Positions 20,243-41,235 of a stretch of 42,573 nt of DNA are shown here, piece by piece. The DNA lies in the NCBI GenBank assembly GCA_018333525.1, contig JAGXTF010000059.1:81334-123906 (forward strand). Direction: 5' to 3'. The notes below the pieces were generated by a model that did not search any database, was not told the origin of the DNA, and saw only the letters and a list, made by a program, of their open reading frames with translations. The first letter of the stretch is position 1; every line of letters begins with the position of its first letter. A program made the translations under genes and the position numbers. The stretch comes from Bacteroidota bacterium (GTDB lineage: Bacteria > Bacteroidota > Bacteroidia > NS11-12g > UBA955).

Positions 20243-21886
20243 TCAGGCGTAGCGATTCCCTACCCAAACAAACCTGCGGTTTACATATTCAGGATTAGTA
20301 AATCCCGCATTTCCGCTTGGATTACCACCGGTTACATGAAAATCGCTGAATGCAGCATGTTGATTCACAAATGCAGCACCATTAAAATTAAAACTCACCG
20401 GGGTGAAAGATCCATTCATGATTTCAGCTGTTTGATTCATAAATTCTTCATCCTGGGAATAACACAAACAGGTAATTGCGCCCAACTCTAAAGCGGCATT
20501 AGATGCGAGTTCCAGACTGTGCGCAGCACTTTTGGTCTTAATAATAAAAATAGCGGGGCCAAAACATTCATGCCTCCATGCATCCGTATTCTCCGCATCG
20601 GTAACCATTACTACCGGACTTTTTATTCTCGCTTCAGGAAATTCCGGATTTACAACTGCAATACTGTCCAGAATTACGGTTGCGCTTTTTTTCGCGGCTT
20701 CTACCCTGTTTATGGTAAGGTCATTTTGAATTGCTCCCAAAGTGTGCGGGCCAGCTTTTGGATTCTCAACCAAAGCTTTTACAGCATTTGCAATTTGTGA
20801 GGCGCATTCATCAAAAGACAAATTTCCGTTTTCTGTTTGAATTCCACTTTCGGAAATGAAAATGTTCTGGGGTGCAGTACACATTTGTCCGGAATATAAA
20901 CTTGCTGAAAAAGCAATATTTCCAAAAATAGGTTCCGGATTTTTTACGCTTTCTAAAATTACCGAATTCACTCCGGCCTTTTCAGTAAATGTGATTTTAC
21001 CGGGAATTTTTTCCAAATAATCGCCGAATGCCGAACCACCAGTGTAATCGATGAGTTTCACATCTTTATGTTCCGCAAGTTCTTTGGTAATTTGTTGTTT
21101 AGATGTATCGGCACCGAGCTGAACTACATTGGGAGAAATTCCTGCATTTTTTAATGCATTTTGAATTTCTGCAACTACAATTGCTATGGGCAAAATACTT
21201 TTCGGATGCGGTTTTACAATTACAGGATTTCCCGCCATTAAATTGGCATATAAACCTGGTACTGTATTCCAGGTGGGGAAAGTACTGCAACCAATTACCA
21301 GTCCGATACCGCGGGGAATTGTTTTAAAAGTTTTTCTGAGAGTGAGGTCAAATTTCCCCATGTTTTTTACCCAGTTTACTTCTTCCTGAAAACGCGACAT
21401 TTCCTCGTAGGCCATAGAAATAACTTCCATTGCTCTATCGTTGGAGTGTGGGCCGCTGGCCTGAAAACTCATCATAAACGCCTGTCCGGTGGTATGCATG
21501 GTTGCATAAGCCAATTCGAAAAAACGATTGCTGATGTTTTCCAAGCTTTCAATAAGAATGGAAGCGCGTTCCTCTTTACTCACTTTAGCCCAAACAGAAG
21601 ACACCTCCTTTGCGTAACGTATAAGTTCTTCGGCGCCGTACTGCGGATATTTGATTCCCAGGCCCAGCATCATATAAGGACTTATTTCTTCACCTATGCG
21701 CCCGCGATGCGGATTTTCGTGTAATTCACTAAAATCGGTATTCAGCATTTTTTGAAAAGCTTCCAATCCTTTTGCATTTGCATCTTCTGCATACGCTTTC
21801 GGATTCTCCGGCCAGGAAGCATAAAAGGTTCTGGTTTTTTGCGCAGTAATTGCAGCGCTTATCAATTCCTGAGATTTTATGGTCAT
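20243..21886 (-). CDS. PaaN-type aldehyde dehydrogenase (phenylacetate pathway homologue)
   Basis: A 547-residue cytoplasmic enzyme of the aldehyde dehydrogenase superfamily, closest by pattern to PaaN proteins lacking the hydratase domain. It has GIGLVIGCSTFPTWNTVPGLYANLMAGNPVI-type cofactor-binding sequence, a DYTGGSAFGDYLE turn, FTEKAGVNSVI, and the probable nucleophilic cysteine in YSGQMCTAPQN. The C-terminal half includes WRHECFGPAIFI. PaaN homologues oxidise aldehydes in ring-cleavage pathways, but no other paa gene is present here. The ATG at 21886 lies one base from the stop of the upstream pore-like protein gene; an upstream GTG frame (21931) is less likely. Confidence 0.85.
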   Translation of the reverse strand: MTIKSQELISAAITAQKTRTFYASWPENPKAYAEDANAKGLEAFQKMLNTDFSELHENPHRGRIGEEISPYMMLGLGIKYPQYGAEELIRYAKEVSSVWAKVSKEERASILIESLENISNRFFELAYATMHTTGQAFMMSFQASGPHSNDRAMEVISMAYEEMSRFQEEVNWVKNMGKFDLTLRKTFKTIPRGIGLVIGCSTFPTWNTVPGLYANLMAGNPVIVKPHPKSILPIAIVVAEIQNALKNAGISPNVVQLGADTSKQQITKELAEHKDVKLIDYTGGSAFGDYLEKIPGKITFTEKAGVNSVILESVKNPEPIFGNIAFSASLYSGQMCTAPQNIFISESGIQTENGNLSFDECASQIANAVKALVENPKAGPHTLGAIQNDLTINRVEAAKKSATVILDSIAVVNPEFPEARIKSPVVMVTDAENTDAWRHECFGPAIFIIKTKSAAHSLELASNAALELGAITCLCYSQDEEFMNQTAEIMNGSFTPVSFNFNGAAFVNQHAAFSDFHVTGGNPSGNAGFTNPEYVNRRFVWVGNRYA

Positions 21887-21887
21887 T

Positions 21888-22268
21888 TTATTGGTTATGT
21901 TCAATTGGAGCCAGCAGTTTATGTAATACACGGTGAAACAATGGTGCGAGCATCACTCCTACTGCTGTGAGGAATGTTACACCGCTGTAAATGCTATACA
22001 GGGTTACAAAAATTTTGGATTTATCGGTATGCAATTCTATTGCCGGACCCATTCCTGTTAGAATCATGGAAGCATTATAAAATGCATCCACCCATGAAAT
22101 GTTTTCCAGTATCCTGTATCCCAGTGCACCCAAAAACAAACTGGAAATTATAAACAGAAAACCTGTAATCGCATACCACAAAACCCTGCGCAGAAATTTT
22201 TTGCGGCCGGCTACAGCTACAGAACGATGTTCAAATTTCAAATCGGCTGGTCTGCGGATTTGCATCAT
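21888..22268 (-). CDS. Two-TM potassium-channel-like protein with atypical filter
   Basis: A 126-residue membrane protein. A basic N terminus (RKKFLRR) leads to helix one (VLWYAITGFLFIISSLFLGALGY), a pore-loop-like segment WVDAFYNASMILTGMGP, and helix two (IFVTLYSIYSGVTFLTAVGVMLAPLF). That is the plan of a two-TM K+ channel subunit, but where the filter would read T-V-G-Y-G-D it reads L-T-G-M-G-P. It may be a channel of altered selectivity or a non-conducting relative. The ATG at 22268 lies four bases after the DUF3467 stop, and the PaaN gene begins one base after its own stop, so all three are one transcript. Confidence 0.7.
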   Translation of the reverse strand: MMQIRRPADLKFEHRSVAVAGRKKFLRRVLWYAITGFLFIISSLFLGALGYRILENISWVDAFYNASMILTGMGPAIELHTDKSKIFVTLYSIYSGVTFLTAVGVMLAPLFHRVLHKLLAPIEHNQ

Positions 22269-22703: not shown

Positions 22704-24254
22704 ATGAATCTCCGGAGGTTATTCACCCTTATTTTATTGGCAGTAACGGGAAAACAAATACAAGCCCAAAGCCCTGATTGGGCTGAAAAAATCGCCCCCA
22801 TTCTTTATACCAACTGCTCTGGTTGCCATATAGAAGGAGGCATTGCGCCTATGAGCTTTACGGGATACGAGGCCGCCAAAACATACGCTTATTCCATAAA
22901 AGGCGCGACACAAAGTAAATCTATGCCTCCCTGGCCCGCTGATCCACAGTACAGGCGAATGGCACATGAGAAATTGCTCAGTGCTCAGGAAATTCAGGAC
23001 ATCTCCGATTGGGTGGATGCAGGCATGCCATCCGGAGACACAACCAAAGCACCGGCAGCACCATCACCAAAAACCGGAAGCAGCATATTAAATGCGAACC
23101 TGAAGCTAAAAATGCCCGATTACAAAGTGAAAACATCCAACGATGAATACCGTTGTTTTGTATTACCAACCGGGCTTTCTGCGGATAAATTTCTCACTGA
23201 AATTGAAGTAGTACCGGGAAATTATTCCGTTGTACACCATGTATTGGTTTTTCATGATACCAGCAAAGTGCCATTGCAATTGGACAGTGCAGACCCAAAT
23301 CCCGGTTATCTGGGATTTGGAGGTACAGGCTCTTCCACCTCCAAAATGATTGGGGTTTGGGTTCCGGGGCAAGACCCTTTTCAAATGCCACCCGGTATGG
23401 GAATAAAATTGGAGAAAAATGGATATATCATTCTACAGGTGCATTATCCTGCAAACATTCAGGATGTTACGGACAGTTCCAAGGTATATCTCAAATACAG
23501 TAGCAGTGCATTACGCGAAGTTGGAATTGCACCAGCGTTGAATCACATAGCACCCAGTTTGCAAAACGGACCATTGTATATTCCTGCAAATCAGAAAAAG
23601 GATTTTACATCCAAATACACTGTGCCTATTGATATTTCCATATTTGCAGTGGCTCCGCATATGCATTTAATCGGACAAAAAATCAAGGCGTTTGGAGTTG
23701 TTAAACCCGGCGATACAAATAAATTTATTTCCATTCCGCAATGGGATTTTCATTGGCAAAGAACTTATACATTTACCAAAGTACAGAAAATTCCCTCCGG
23801 CACTGTTTTATGGGGAAATGCGTCTTACGACAATACTTCCGGAAATCCCCTGAATCCTAATAAACCACCAAAAGCAGTGAGCCTGGGTGAAGCAACAACC
23901 GATGAAATGATGTTGGTTTATTTTTGGTACACCTTGTACCAGAATGGTGATGAAAATATGGTATTGGATACCACACAACCCAAAAACTTAAGCCATACCA
24001 ATTCTTTCGCAACTCATTCAATAGTCGGGTTTCCGAATCCGGCCGGCGAAATTTACCATTTGCGCGGTGTTACAAACGAAAAAGATCGATTGAATTATCA
24101 ATTATTTAATGTTGCCGGAAAATTAATTCCATGTTCGTGGAAATGGAATGGCGAAGAAGTAGAATTTGATATTCGCAATCTGGCGGCCGGAAATTATTAT
24201 TTAAAGATTTCCGGTATCGGTTTTACCAAAAATATGGCATTGATAAAACTCTAA
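22704..24254 (+). CDS. Cytochrome c / PHM-like copper monooxygenase with T9SS sorting domain
   Basis: A 516-residue secreted fusion. Signal peptide about 1-22; a short cytochrome c domain with the haem motif CSGCH at 38-42 and candidate Met ligands at 50 or 74; then a type II copper-, ascorbate-dependent monooxygenase-like domain; and a C-terminal T9SS type-A domain from about 438 (IVGFPNPAGE, NVAGKLIPC, LAAGNYYLKI). The six copper ligands of PHM have counterparts: His178, His179 and His247 for one copper, and His319, His321 and Met402 or Met403 for the other. PHM-like enzymes hydroxylate C-H bonds; the fused cytochrome could supply electrons (inference). Its stop overlaps the RidA stop on the other strand. 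Confidence 0.88.
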   Translation: MNLRRLFTLILLAVTGKQIQAQSPDWAEKIAPILYTNCSGCHIEGGIAPMSFTGYEAAKTYAYSIKGATQSKSMPPWPADPQYRRMAHEKLLSAQEIQDISDWVDAGMPSGDTTKAPAAPSPKTGSSILNANLKLKMPDYKVKTSNDEYRCFVLPTGLSADKFLTEIEVVPGNYSVVHHVLVFHDTSKVPLQLDSADPNPGYLGFGGTGSSTSKMIGVWVPGQDPFQMPPGMGIKLEKNGYIILQVHYPANIQDVTDSSKVYLKYSSSALREVGIAPALNHIAPSLQNGPLYIPANQKKDFTSKYTVPIDISIFAVAPHMHLIGQKIKAFGVVKPGDTNKFISIPQWDFHWQRTYTFTKVQKIPSGTVLWGNASYDNTSGNPLNPNKPPKAVSLGEATTDEMMLVYFWYTLYQNGDENMVLDTTQPKNLSHTNSFATHSIVGFPNPAGEIYHLRGVTNEKDRLNYQLFNVAGKLIPCSWKWNGEEVEFDIRNLAAGNYYLKISGIGFTKNMALIKL

Positions 24255-24634
24255 GGGAGCATAGCTACCACTGAAATTTCAACCAACGCATCTTTCGGCA
24301 GGCGGCTTACTTCCACCGTTTCTCTTGCAGGAAAATCAGCGGTAAAATAACTCCCGTACACGGCATTAATCTTAGGGAAATCATCCATATTTTTGATAAA
24401 TATGGAGGTTTTAACGATACTGGAATAATCCAGGCCGGCTTCTTTTAAAAGCGCACCTACATTGTTCATGGCAATTTTCGTTTGTTCTTCCACATTGCCT
24501 TCCGACATTTTTCCAGTGGAAGGATCAATGGCAATCTGTCCGGACAGGTAAACAAAATTTCTGGCTTTCACACCCTGGCTATAGGGCCCAATGGGCTCAG
24601 GTGCATTTTTGGTATATATGGTTTGGCGATTCAT
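24251..24634 (-). CDS. RidA-family enamine/imine deaminase
   Basis: With the ATG at 24634 this is 127 residues, the standard RidA length, starting MNRQTIYTKNAPEPIGPYSQG. RidA hydrolyses reactive enamine/imine intermediates such as 2-aminoacrylate in the cytoplasm. Typical segments are GPYSQGVKARNFVYLSGQI, NVGALLKEAG, VKTSIFIKNMDDFPKIN, and the C-terminal ARETVEVSRLPKDALVEI with the conserved arginine before E-T-V-E-V. A longer frame from ATG 24736 would add a basic, hydrophobic, lipobox-like N terminus (LFAC) and overlap the divergent gene; I prefer the short form. Its TAG stop overlaps the TAA of the convergent copper oxygenase gene. Confidence 0.9.
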   Translation of the reverse strand: MNRQTIYTKNAPEPIGPYSQGVKARNFVYLSGQIAIDPSTGKMSEGNVEEQTKIAMNNVGALLKEAGLDYSSIVKTSIFIKNMDDFPKINAVYGSYFTADFPARETVEVSRLPKDALVEISVVAMLP

Positions 24635-24650
24635 GGATTCCTTATTTTTG
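24622..24650 (+). promoter_or_regulatory. Promoter for the 3HCDH-like gene, overlapping the RidA start
   Basis: TTTG (24622-24625), 17 bases, then TATTTTTG (24643-24650), an exact TAnnTTTG box. The ATG at 24658 follows seven bases later, implying a very short or absent leader. The element spans the first codons of the divergent RidA gene and supports 24658 as the start of the plus-strand gene. Confidence 0.6.
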
Positions 24651-24657
24651 CTGCCAC

Positions 24658-25317
24658 ATGCAAACAGGTATATTGGGGTCCCCAGCACAATCAAAAGCCT
24701 GGCAGCTACTTGCCGGCGAAAATAATGCCTGTACATGGCTGCAAGATACCCAATCGTCAAAGAATTTTAATTTGGTCATCGATTTGGAATTTGATGACCA
24801 TCCGGAACGCATTTTGGAATATGCCGGAAATACTGAAACCATATTTCTACTGGGAGCAGTAAAAATCACACCTGAACTTGCATTTGCAAATGCGGGTATT
24901 GCATATTCCGGAGAAAAGATTTTTGGAATCAATTCCATACCCTCTTTTTTGGAAAGGAAAACCCTGGAAATCAGCAATCCATTTTCACTGGATATTGCCA
25001 TGCTGGCTGAGTTAAAATGGTGGGATCAGATGGAGTGGGTAAAAAGCCGGGTGGGAATGGTAACGCCACGCATTGTTTTCATGATTATTAATGAGGCGTA
25101 TTTTACTTTTCAGGAGGGTACTGCTACCCGTGAAGACATTAATGCCGCGATGAAACTTGGCACCAATTATCCCCGTGGACCATTTGAATGGTGTGAAGTT
25201 GCAGGAATTGCAAATGTGTATGAAACTCTGTTAGCGGTTTATGAAGATACACGCGATGAGCGCTATAAAATTTGCCCTGCTTTGAAGTCAGAATATCTGT
25301 TGCAAAACATACGCTGA
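24658..25317 (+). CDS. 3-hydroxyacyl-CoA dehydrogenase C-terminal-like protein
   Basis: A 219-residue cytoplasmic protein. The C-terminal 90 residues match the helical C-terminal domain of 3-hydroxyacyl-CoA dehydrogenases: VTPRIVFMIINEAYFTFQEGTA, DINAAMKLGTNYPRGPFEW, and a final helix. The N-terminal 120 residues look like a shortened nucleotide-binding-type fold (GILGSP, NLVIDLEFDD, IFLLGAVK) without a clear GxGxxG loop, so NAD binding and catalysis are doubtful. It may be a non-catalytic or divergent beta-oxidation relative. The start at 24658 is supported by the promoter box seven bases upstream; an open frame continues upstream to 24601 without support. Confidence 0.75.
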   Translation: MQTGILGSPAQSKAWQLLAGENNACTWLQDTQSSKNFNLVIDLEFDDHPERILEYAGNTETIFLLGAVKITPELAFANAGIAYSGEKIFGINSIPSFLERKTLEISNPFSLDIAMLAELKWWDQMEWVKSRVGMVTPRIVFMIINEAYFTFQEGTATREDINAAMKLGTNYPRGPFEWCEVAGIANVYETLLAVYEDTRDERYKICPALKSEYLLQNIR

Positions 25318-38587: not shown

Positions 38588-41209
38588 CTATTCAGATGAA
38601 ATAATCAATCTGGAAGCATTTATTTTTCCGTTTTCAAATTCTATTTTAACTGTATAAGTACCCGGCCTGAGATCATTTACCGCGATAGGTTTGCCGGAAC
38701 TTATCGAATTTAAAACCATTACTGTTTTACCTGTAATATCCGATATGGCCAGTTGCCGAACCGCCAAATCCGATTGAACGTTAAAATATGCAGTTGCCGG
38801 ATTGGGATAAAAATTACAATGGTTATTGGGAACATCAGAAATATTTTCAACCCTTTTGCCGTGCAAATACAGCACAAAGCTGGTGTCATCACCAATGGTT
38901 CCAGGGTCACTAACATTCCTCAATGCAAACTCAATGCTGCGTGTTTCGGAAAATGTTGGCGCCAATATCGTTACCGGTACATATACCTGGGTATTGCCAA
39001 CTGTAAAGTAAATCTGTTGATTCGTAAATGAAAAATCTTCTCCATTTATTGCTGAACCACCTTTAATTACCAAGTCTGCAGTAAAGTTCTCCTCCGCGGG
39101 ATTGTTGTTAATTCCAATGGAATAATTACTGTTTCCTATTATTGCCGAATCGCTTTCCCCAATAAAATCCACAACCGGTAAAATAGAATTTTCTATATCG
39201 TTTTTAGAAATTGGAATAATAAAATGATTGCTTAAATAGGGCGAAGTGGCATCTGCTTGTCCTACAAAACCTGTAACATTAAAATAACCTTCCGGAGCTA
39301 TGGATCCATTGAGATTGGTAATGGAATAAATGTACATCGAATCTATGGTTCCATCGGTATGCTTCACTCCCACCCTTGCAAACTTCCCGGCAGTTATTGG
39401 AATAGTTGGCCATTGCAAAGGATCTGTTAATTTCACTTTTTTAATTTTCACCAATGCAGATTCATGCAATTCATCCGGATGAGAAATCACAGAAGTATTG
39501 CGCAATAATTTGTTTGAAGATTTCTTAACCATTGAATCCAGTTTGGTTATGATTCCCCAACCATTTTTTTGACCAACATAACCAGTTACAACTACACTGT
39601 CTCCCATATTGAACGGCCCACTTTGAAGTGTGTCTTCGATATAAATGCTTCCGGTAATATCTGAGATAAAATAATGGGAACCGGATTCACCCATGGAATT
39701 GCTCTGTAATACACCTGCTATTCTGCAATGTACATTCAGTGAATCTGAAATTCCGGATATCTTGTTTTGGGTATTTATTTTTTTGATGGAATATAAAGGT
39801 GGCAATGGTTTATCACACAGCTTATCGGAATATGGCTGGGCCTCCAATTCAAGTCCGGGTGTTAAATTTCTACCATTAAATGCCCCATAATCCGGAGGAT
39901 AAAACTGACAGCGAAATACAGAATTTGCAATGGGTTTGACCCCTTGTTTGGTAGCGCCTGAAGAATTAATCGGATTTACATATTCCCACACAATAGTATC
40001 ATTGGAAATTTCCAAAAATCTACCTGTAGTGGCCAGAGTTGCTAAAATATGGGAATCGGAAATCTGATAGACACCACCCATAAAATCGGTGTAGAAATCC
40101 GTTGGTTTTGTTGCTTTATAAACTTCCTTTTCTTTGATAGGCCCAAATGGATTACCGGAGATGTAGGTGTATAAACCATTGGTGGTTAAAGGAGGATTAA
40201 TTCTACCTATGGTTGAGTATTTGGTAGCTCCCGGACGGTTTAATCCATTGTTAAAGAAAATTATTTGCCCTTCATTTTCCAAACCTTTTTCTACCCAATT
40301 TGCATGGTGGCTGTTAAACAATCTCCAGTTAGAGGAATCGCCGGTTCTATATGAAAGGGAATTGCCCCAGCGGTACAGAATATCGCCCCCTGCATCGGTT
40401 CTGCCACCGGAATGAGTAGCAGCTTCCAAAGTTGTTGTAGAATGATCGATAATATAAATTTCATCCAGGGAATGTGAAGTTAAAAGTATTTGATCCAATG
40501 CCTCATTGTAATCAATCCCATTAAAATGCAACCAATCCTGTCCTGTATTTAATTTATTGTTATTGGTAAAATTAATATCAAACAATTCACGATGGTTGGG
40601 CACCACTCCGTAATTTTTCTTTGTTGAATCATAATCCTGCACCATGTGATCCCAGACTTTCCATTCCCAAACAATTTCTGCAGAATCTGCACCAACTGGT
40701 TTAATTTCCTGAATTCTTTCGCTCCACACAGAAAATTTTGTCTGCGCAGGATTTCTGCCATGTGCCAAGGCATCAGCTATGGTATGATTTTCCCATACAA
40801 TGGCCAGAATATTGCCATTTGGCATTACTTTAAAATCATGGTGAAACACCATCACGGTGTCCGCCTGTTTGTATTGCCATTTCAGATTGCCATCCCAGTC
40901 GAATATTTCCAGAACCCCACCAACACCCGGTCCAAATCCGGCTCCAATTACATGACCTGCACGCACCAGGTTGCCATTTGGCTGCAGGGATGCCGAAAAG
41001 CCGGGAATGTAATTGCTGGTCCAGGTGTTTACCACTCTGCCACATTTATCCAGCAAATAGGTTTTCTTGGTCCCATTCGGGCTGTAAAGCACATATCCAT
41101 CTTGATTTTTGGGGGAGTAGGTAACCACACCAACGGTTCGGGTTTGGGAGAAAAGTGGAAGGAAGAAGAAAACAAGAACCGGAAGAAGTAGGTGGTATTT
41201 TAAATTCAT
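38588..41209 (-). CDS. T9SS-secreted arylsulfotransferase-like multidomain protein
   Basis: An 873-residue secreted protein starting at ATG 41209 (a TTG two codons upstream is in frame). After the signal peptide comes an arylsulfotransferase-like beta-propeller (about 25-450), with DGYVLYSPNGTKKTYLLD, VFHHDFKVMPNGNILAI and WLHFNGIDYN, each a D/N-G-N or H-containing blade like those of ASST enzymes, which move sulfate between phenols. Then an OB-like domain (about 480-690: DSVVVTGYVGQKNGWG, GYFNVTGFVGQ), a Calx-beta-like domain (about 690-790, SAINGEDFSFTNQQIYFTVG), and a T9SS type-A domain in the last 78 residues. The active-site histidine of ASST cannot be fixed by eye, so catalysis is unproven. 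Confidence 0.8.
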   Translation of the reverse strand: MNLKYHLLLPVLVFFFLPLFSQTRTVGVVTYSPKNQDGYVLYSPNGTKKTYLLDKCGRVVNTWTSNYIPGFSASLQPNGNLVRAGHVIGAGFGPGVGGVLEIFDWDGNLKWQYKQADTVMVFHHDFKVMPNGNILAIVWENHTIADALAHGRNPAQTKFSVWSERIQEIKPVGADSAEIVWEWKVWDHMVQDYDSTKKNYGVVPNHRELFDINFTNNNKLNTGQDWLHFNGIDYNEALDQILLTSHSLDEIYIIDHSTTTLEAATHSGGRTDAGGDILYRWGNSLSYRTGDSSNWRLFNSHHANWVEKGLENEGQIIFFNNGLNRPGATKYSTIGRINPPLTTNGLYTYISGNPFGPIKEKEVYKATKPTDFYTDFMGGVYQISDSHILATLATTGRFLEISNDTIVWEYVNPINSSGATKQGVKPIANSVFRCQFYPPDYGAFNGRNLTPGLELEAQPYSDKLCDKPLPPLYSIKKINTQNKISGISDSLNVHCRIAGVLQSNSMGESGSHYFISDITGSIYIEDTLQSGPFNMGDSVVVTGYVGQKNGWGIITKLDSMVKKSSNKLLRNTSVISHPDELHESALVKIKKVKLTDPLQWPTIPITAGKFARVGVKHTDGTIDSMYIYSITNLNGSIAPEGYFNVTGFVGQADATSPYLSNHFIIPISKNDIENSILPVVDFIGESDSAIIGNSNYSIGINNNPAEENFTADLVIKGGSAINGEDFSFTNQQIYFTVGNTQVYVPVTILAPTFSETRSIEFALRNVSDPGTIGDDTSFVLYLHGKRVENISDVPNNHCNFYPNPATAYFNVQSDLAVRQLAISDITGKTVMVLNSISSGKPIAVNDLRPGTYTVKIEFENGKINASRLIISSE

Positions 41210-41213
41210 ATAC

Positions 41214-41235
41214 AAATAGAACGATTATTCTATTT
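41214..41235. promoter_or_regulatory. 8-bp inverted repeat in the arylsulfotransferase-like leader
   Basis: AAATAGAA (41214-41221) and TTCTATTT (41228-41235) are perfect inverted repeats with a six-base loop, four bases upstream of the ATG at 41209 on the minus strand. A TCtaTTTG, one mismatch from the -7 box, overlaps the arm nearer the gene. It could be an operator or a leader hairpin. Confidence 0.4.

Follow-up and report, generated by a model that had tools for sequence, protein, structure and literature searches.

How would a copper monooxygenase that works outside a bacterial cell be supplied with electrons, and what would it oxidise? PHM and DBH, the animal copper enzymes that make amidated hormones and noradrenaline, need ascorbate, and it is the copper site termed Cu_M that activates O2 in both. 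The question is raised by an open reading frame on the + strand (22704-24254, 516 aa) of the 42,573-nucleotide stretch of Bacteroidota DNA analysed here (the window), which encodes a signal peptide, a cytochrome c domain, a PHM/DBH-like dicopper core and a T9SS sorting tail. An earlier note had described this gene as a secreted copper monooxygenase fused to cytochrome c; its coordinates, strand and length all proved correct when the open reading frame was checked, and the residues it had singled out (H178, H179, H247, H319, H321, M402 and M403) stand at those numbers in the translation.

All features of the gene lie on the + strand. The N-terminal Sec-type signal peptide (approx. residues 1-22; 22704-22769) was recognised by inspection and appears in the model as a helix at residues 3-20. 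It is followed by the c-type cytochrome domain (residues 24-110; 22773-23033), which is assigned from matches of the Pfam models CBB3 and Haem_bd to the cut-out domain and to a 65-member alignment, from a model of the domain and from its match to PccH. The core consists of a Cu_H domain (approx. residues 130-285; 23091-23558) and a Cu_M domain (approx. residues 286-416; 23559-23951), both supported by VIA alignment to PHM and DBH and by Pfam matches of the window protein, i.e. Cu2_monooxygen (PF01082) at residues 134-249 with 40.5 bits (cut-off 30) and Cu2_monoox_C (PF03712) at residues 310-418 with 32.7 bits (cut-off 23). The T9SS type A sorting domain (residues 441-516; 24024-24251) is matched by Por_Secre_tail (PF18962; residues 443-504, 30.9 bits, cut-off 27), by TIGR04183, also above cut-off, and by solved tails. 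The haem domain before the core and the sorting domain after it, as proposed in the earlier note, were thus both recovered.

The core is, by sequence and model, a PHM/DBH-type two-domain fold with the full predicted set of Cu_H (three His) and Cu_M (two His, one Met) ligands. The window protein matched DBH (4zel, E 9.2e-8) and PHM (1opm, E 0.0012) with phmmer, and DBH was also the top match by sequence in a profile search (E 9e-9). In the phmmer alignment to 1opm, with PHM numbering counted by hand as chain index plus 44, His178-His179 (23235-23240) correspond to the Cu_H ligands His107 and His108 of PHM, Gln245 and His247 of the Q-V-H motif (23436-23444) to Gln170 and to the third Cu_H ligand His172, and His319 and His321 of His319-Met320-His321 (23658-23666) to the Cu_M ligands His242 and His244. 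An AlphaFold2 model built from 65 sequences (pLDDT 90.8, pTM 0.77), superposed on rat PHM as the earlier note had proposed, matched this fold (5wja_D, Z 23.8, 3.1 angstrom over 260 aa, 19% identity), and human DBH (4zel_A) followed at Z 22.1. The VIA ranking contained 26 PHM/DBH rows at Z 19.9-23.8, with the next row at Z 8.9, and Foldseek returned DBH at E 1.5e-15 and PHM at E 3.3e-15.

The sixth ligand had been left in the earlier note as Met402 or Met403. The available part of PMC4846438 gives the copper ligands of DBH as His262, His263, His333, His412, His414 and Met487. The ends of the VIA alignments place model residue 416 on PHM 328, 411 on PHM 323 and 413 on DBH 498, so that, provided the last strand is gapless, Met402 (23907-23909) is the predicted counterpart of PHM Met314 and DBH Met487. 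Met402 is invariant in 65/65 proteins, and this half of the proposal stands; Met403 was rejected, as it is Met in 53/65 only and the structural offset (416 on PHM 328) leads to 402. A search with residues 285-425 for a sequence alignment across the ligand Met gave nothing useful, the best matches being to adenosine kinase (E 0.22).

Conservation was read from an alignment of the window protein with proteins of 64 of the 80 loci fetched (65 proteins); the 16 loci left aside carried fusions, truncated or overlong forms, or near-duplicates (L069, L074, L079, L093, L099, L103, L111, L113, L116, L117, L118, L121, L127, L137, L138 and L144). The window protein has 13 His and 14 Met, and only H42, H178, H179, H247, H319, H321, M74 and M402 among them are invariant in 65/65. 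These are the expected copper ligands, the His of CxxCH and one Met placed in the haem domain, a pattern that is not due to chance. The claim that counterparts of all six PHM copper ligands are present is therefore upheld at aligned and invariant positions. Gln245 is likewise invariant in 65/65; among 17 exported-type proteins of another set, which shares some members with the first, 14 have Gln and 3 have Ala at this position.

In the amino-terminal domain, the CxxCH haem attachment motif C38-C41-H42 (CSGCH, residues 38-42; 22815-22829) is present in 65/65 proteins. Met74 (22923-22925), which lies in an MPPW motif and is equally invariant, is a candidate distal axial haem ligand as judged from sequence, and every one of the 33 proteins of types A and B (see below) has it too. 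The match of Cytochrome_CBB3 lies below its cut-off of 27 bits both in the whole window protein (17.9 bits) and in the cut-out domain (23.2 bits, E 8.7e-5). When the 65 haem domains were cut out and searched at E <= 0.01, Cytochrome_CBB3 matched 49, Haem_bd 43 and Cytochrom_C 16. Folded alone, the domain gave a helical model (pLDDT 84.8) whose best solved match was the monohaem cytochrome PccH (4rlr, Z 7.5, 2.1 angstrom, 75 aa), a Z score within the range of common arrangements; Foldseek with the same model returned no match at E <= 0.001, the best being cytochrome c6 at E 0.48.

The earlier note had considered this an uncommon bacterial use of the family, which was not borne out. Among 57 related genomes, the genome of the window counted in, 55 had a match at E <= 0.001, some of these being T9SS tails alone, and 26 had the exported type (match of at least 287 bits). 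A scan of species-level genomes gave at least 593 pattern matches and at least 577 confirmed loci, of which 80 were kept. The hosts among the matches listed are nearly all uncultured Bacteroidota, and a few carry the labels Kapaibacterium, Ignavibacteria or Thermoanaerobaculia. In the last case (L085, Acidobacteriota by label) the gene is nested in a Bacteroidota branch, and the contig is possibly mis-binned. Across the phylum, a profile of the core gave long matches (>240 bits, counted by hand) in 21/296 genomes; matches at E <= 0.001 occurred in 89/296, the others being short, mostly to the haem domain, and uncounted. A further draw of 99 genomes from the same phylum returned mostly the same genomes and added nothing. 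PF01082 alone gave a match in 6/296 genomes, against 21/296 for the core profile, so that Pfam misses most bacterial members and was rejected as a census tool. Plasmid records yielded a single remote match, in Nonomuraea (25% identity, unannotated). The exported form is thus common in the order of the window and patchy beyond it. Two adjacent copies of the copper monooxygenase gene were seen in 4/80 fetched loci (L094, L101, L117 and L136).

The genome of the window holds two members of the family, the window gene and a paralogue 33% identical to it that lacks a T9SS tail (G000:C34 7391-8689; locus L032:7313-8698). Ten cofactor residues are complete in 133/138 family proteins, a set that includes near-copies fetched by two routes. 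Four of the five exceptions are split or cut (L046, the second copy in L117, L118 and L167); in the fifth (L069:4893-6476) an in-frame deletion takes out the Cu_M HMH stretch and leaves the rest intact, which may be a genuine loss or a fault of the assembly. A tree of 128 distinct bacterial cores has a branch with SH-aLRT 99 that parts 104 tailed and 2 tail-less proteins from the other group, which is tail-less throughout (22/22). In both of the tail-less exceptions (L108 and L133) the stop codon is immediately followed by tail-like sequence. By sequence, then, the window gene belongs to a T9SS-exported clade within a wider cytochrome-PHM family. Type B and related paralogues share with it the cytochrome domain, the core and the same ten cofactor residues, but differ in the missing T9SS tail, in a redoxin gene usually nearby, in the pocket and in their place on the opposite side of the tree. 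The type B pocket has Asp245, Asn317, Gln404 and Ile406, each in 16/16, and in six further tail-less proteins, which form a third set, the pocket residues differ again. That the metal sites are fixed while the pockets vary suggests enzymes with different substrates.

Gene order around the window gene is kept in its own lineage: PaaN, DUF3467, copper monooxygenase, RidA and a 3-hydroxyacyl-CoA dehydrogenase-like gene. The PaaN-type aldehyde dehydrogenase (20243-21931, - strand; TIGR02288 above cut-off) and the protein with a 3-hydroxyacyl-CoA dehydrogenase C-terminal domain (24601-25317, + strand) both show this synteny within one lineage. The latter protein has 238 aa, with the dehydrogenase domain at 152-230 and a first 150 residues for which Pfam gave no match at E <= 0.1. 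PaaN was found in 10/80 fetched loci (11 matches, from which the remote one in L108, at 24% identity, was excluded), paaABCD directly downstream on the same strand in 4/80, and a gene of the fatty acid hydroxylase family directly upstream or in frame in 10/80. In L111:4197-6554 (785 aa) and L121:4194-6575 (793 aa), the fatty acid hydroxylase-family gene and the exported copper monooxygenase form a single open frame; an apparent signal peptide lies mid-frame, which makes separate translation as likely as fusion. PaaA was above cut-off in 52/57 relatives, with or without the copper monooxygenase gene, and such near-universal occurrence makes co-occurrence uninformative. The PaaN, paaABCD and fatty acid hydroxylase neighbours are leads only.

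We consider the protein rather more probably than otherwise to be a secreted dicopper hydroxylase with the PHM/DBH fold and non-coupled copper sites, held at the cell surface or released, that would use O2, be reduced via its own haem and act on a small, fairly non-polar substrate; occupancy by metal and haem, direction of electron flow, hydroxylase chemistry and substrate class are all predicted features of this proposal. The protein would be exported by Sec and receive covalent haem c in the periplasm, after which the T9SS would carry it over the outer membrane to the cell surface or into release. Both maturation steps are possible in this genome, since it encodes SprA (2206 bits, on the contig of the window) and cytochrome c assembly functions (two Cytochrom_C_asm matches above cut-off). 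The tail of the model resembles those of the cargo NucA (8glk_D, Z 7.7) and the CTD of mirolase (8qb1_C, Z 7.2), matches which in VIA lie among other beta-sandwiches. Once outside, the haem would be reduced by an external reductant or another cytochrome and could pass electrons to Cu_H (H178, H179, H247), which would supply Cu_M (H319, H321, M402), where O2 would be activated and a C-H bond of the bound substrate hydroxylated. The fused cytochrome would in this way replace free ascorbate.

Among solved structures, DBH (4zel) is the best match by sequence and by Foldseek, sharing the dicopper core, the six ligands and the presence of an extra N-terminal domain. This domain is DOMON in DBH and a CxxCH cytochrome in the window protein, which moreover is bacterial, has a T9SS tail and shows no dimerisation domain. 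PHM (1phm, 5wja, 1opm) has the same two-domain fold, with Z reaching 23.8 (260 aa), and its H107/H108/H172, H242/H244, M314, Gln170 and Gln272 all have counterparts in the window protein (numbering by hand); it differs in that the window protein has a fused haem domain, has Arg240 and Asn316 replaced, and is without the lyase partner domain. For DBH the electron source is ascorbate, according to the accessible portion of PMC4846438, and the sharing of electrons between the two distant coppers of PHM and DBH is still debated in the sections available of that paper and of PMC6123673. The closest precedent for a haem-fed core, by analogy, may be sought in cytochrome-reduced bacterial LPMOs: the excerpt available of PMC8981238 describes reduction of LPMOs by the bacterial c-type cytochrome domain CjX183, and, in cellobiose dehydrogenase with LPMO and Cellvibrio Cbp2D X183 with LPMO, an extracellular haem domain that feeds a copper monooxygenase. 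In these LPMO systems the cytochrome is on a separate protein, whereas it is fused in the window protein. A further distinction is that LPMOs are single-copper enzymes of a different fold.

The haem, which all intact members examined keep, is best taken as the point of electron entry: the fused domain probably feeds electrons to the copper core, from which the linker (approx. residues 111-130) could hold it distant. The flow might conceivably be reversed, in an extracellular oxidase or dehydrogenase-like relay whose copper takes electrons from the substrate and whose haem passes them to a respiratory or extracellular chain. The nearest solved match of the haem domain, PccH, is a cytochrome of Geobacter, models of the Haem_bd/CBB3 type match most members, and direction cannot be read from sequence; nevertheless a complete His/His/Met Cu_M site in nearly all of the 138 proteins, and a Gln170 counterpart in most proteins of the exported form, argue for the hydroxylase, and we regard a reversed relay as unlikely. 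Somewhat less credible still is a non-catalytic surface protein for copper scavenging or sensing, a role that would suit invariant copper ligands, a tail that places the protein outside, and a gene with no substrate pathway firmly linked to it, but in which an invariant haem motif with the candidate axial Met74 (65/65) would be needless and clade-specific changes of the pocket around fixed ligands would be unexpected.

As to the substrate, an exported hydroxylase of this fold could be a genuine peptidylglycine alpha-hydroxylating monooxygenase with secreted peptides as the targets of amidation, PHM being one of its two best structural matches. We take PHM Arg240 and Asn316 to be the residues that hold the substrate carboxylate, and Tyr318 to be a further substrate residue. 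The counterpart of Tyr318 (position 406) is Tyr or Phe in 65/65 exported-type proteins, but that of Arg240 (position 317) is Ala or Gly in 56/65 and that of Asn316 (position 404) Leu, Ile or Val in 64/65. This replacement by non-polar residues makes a peptidyl-glycine substrate unlikely, and as Pfam matched no lyase domain in the window protein, peptide amidation appears highly improbable. The substrate of the favoured hydroxylase is probably small and fairly non-polar or aromatic, and not peptidyl-glycine. A special case of this explanation, in which an extracellular, DBH-like benzylic hydroxylation feeds the phenylacetate pathway, draws on the neighbourhood, with PaaN as a neighbour both in the window and in the loci counted above and paaABCD in four other loci, as well as on DBH as the closest solved relative by sequence. 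Each paa linkage is however that of a single lineage and, among dozens of contexts, may be due to chance, PaaA occurs in relatives regardless of the gene, and as many loci adjoin a fatty acid hydroxylase-family gene instead as have PaaN; we thus hold a role in aromatic catabolism to be improbable.

What appears to be novel here is a T9SS-exported, cytochrome-fused clade of the known PHM/DBH superfamily, and our search of open-licence papers returned no description of a bacterial cytochrome-PHM fusion or of a T9SS-exported member. A broader and speculative picture, to which we give little weight, would have PHM/DBH chemistry widespread in bacteria and independent of ascorbate, with the fused cytochrome as electron source, one deep clade exported by the T9SS, several clades with different pockets and substrates, environmental compounds as the molecules hydroxylated, products that in some lineages enter the metabolism of aromatics or lipids, and the animal hydroxylases as a late branch of this larger bacterial family. 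With its fused probable donor and its hundreds of naturally occurring variants, such a family would allow direct tests of how electrons enter, of what Gln170 does (most exported-type proteins have Gln here, type B has Asp) and of how the pocket relates to the substrate. It would also add an undescribed oxygenase to the enzymes that common environmental Bacteroidota secrete.

Some further observations concern the tail-less paralogues and the rest of the window. A gene for a thioredoxin-like protein with a CPLC motif is adjacent to the type B gene, or at most two genes away, in 15/16 loci, the 16th being at a contig end, and such a gene is also present at 4/6 loci of the third set and at two exported-type loci (L158 and L167); no thioredoxin-like gene was found near the window gene. 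The redoxin linked to type B may aid haem attachment or copper loading. In the genome of the window, the tail-less paralogue begins before the preceding thioredoxin-like gene (L032:6798-7328) has ended. Finally, the window contains another exported enzyme, a protein with an arylsulfotransferase domain (PF05935) and a T9SS tail (38588-41215, - strand), of a kind that presumably acts on phenolic compounds.
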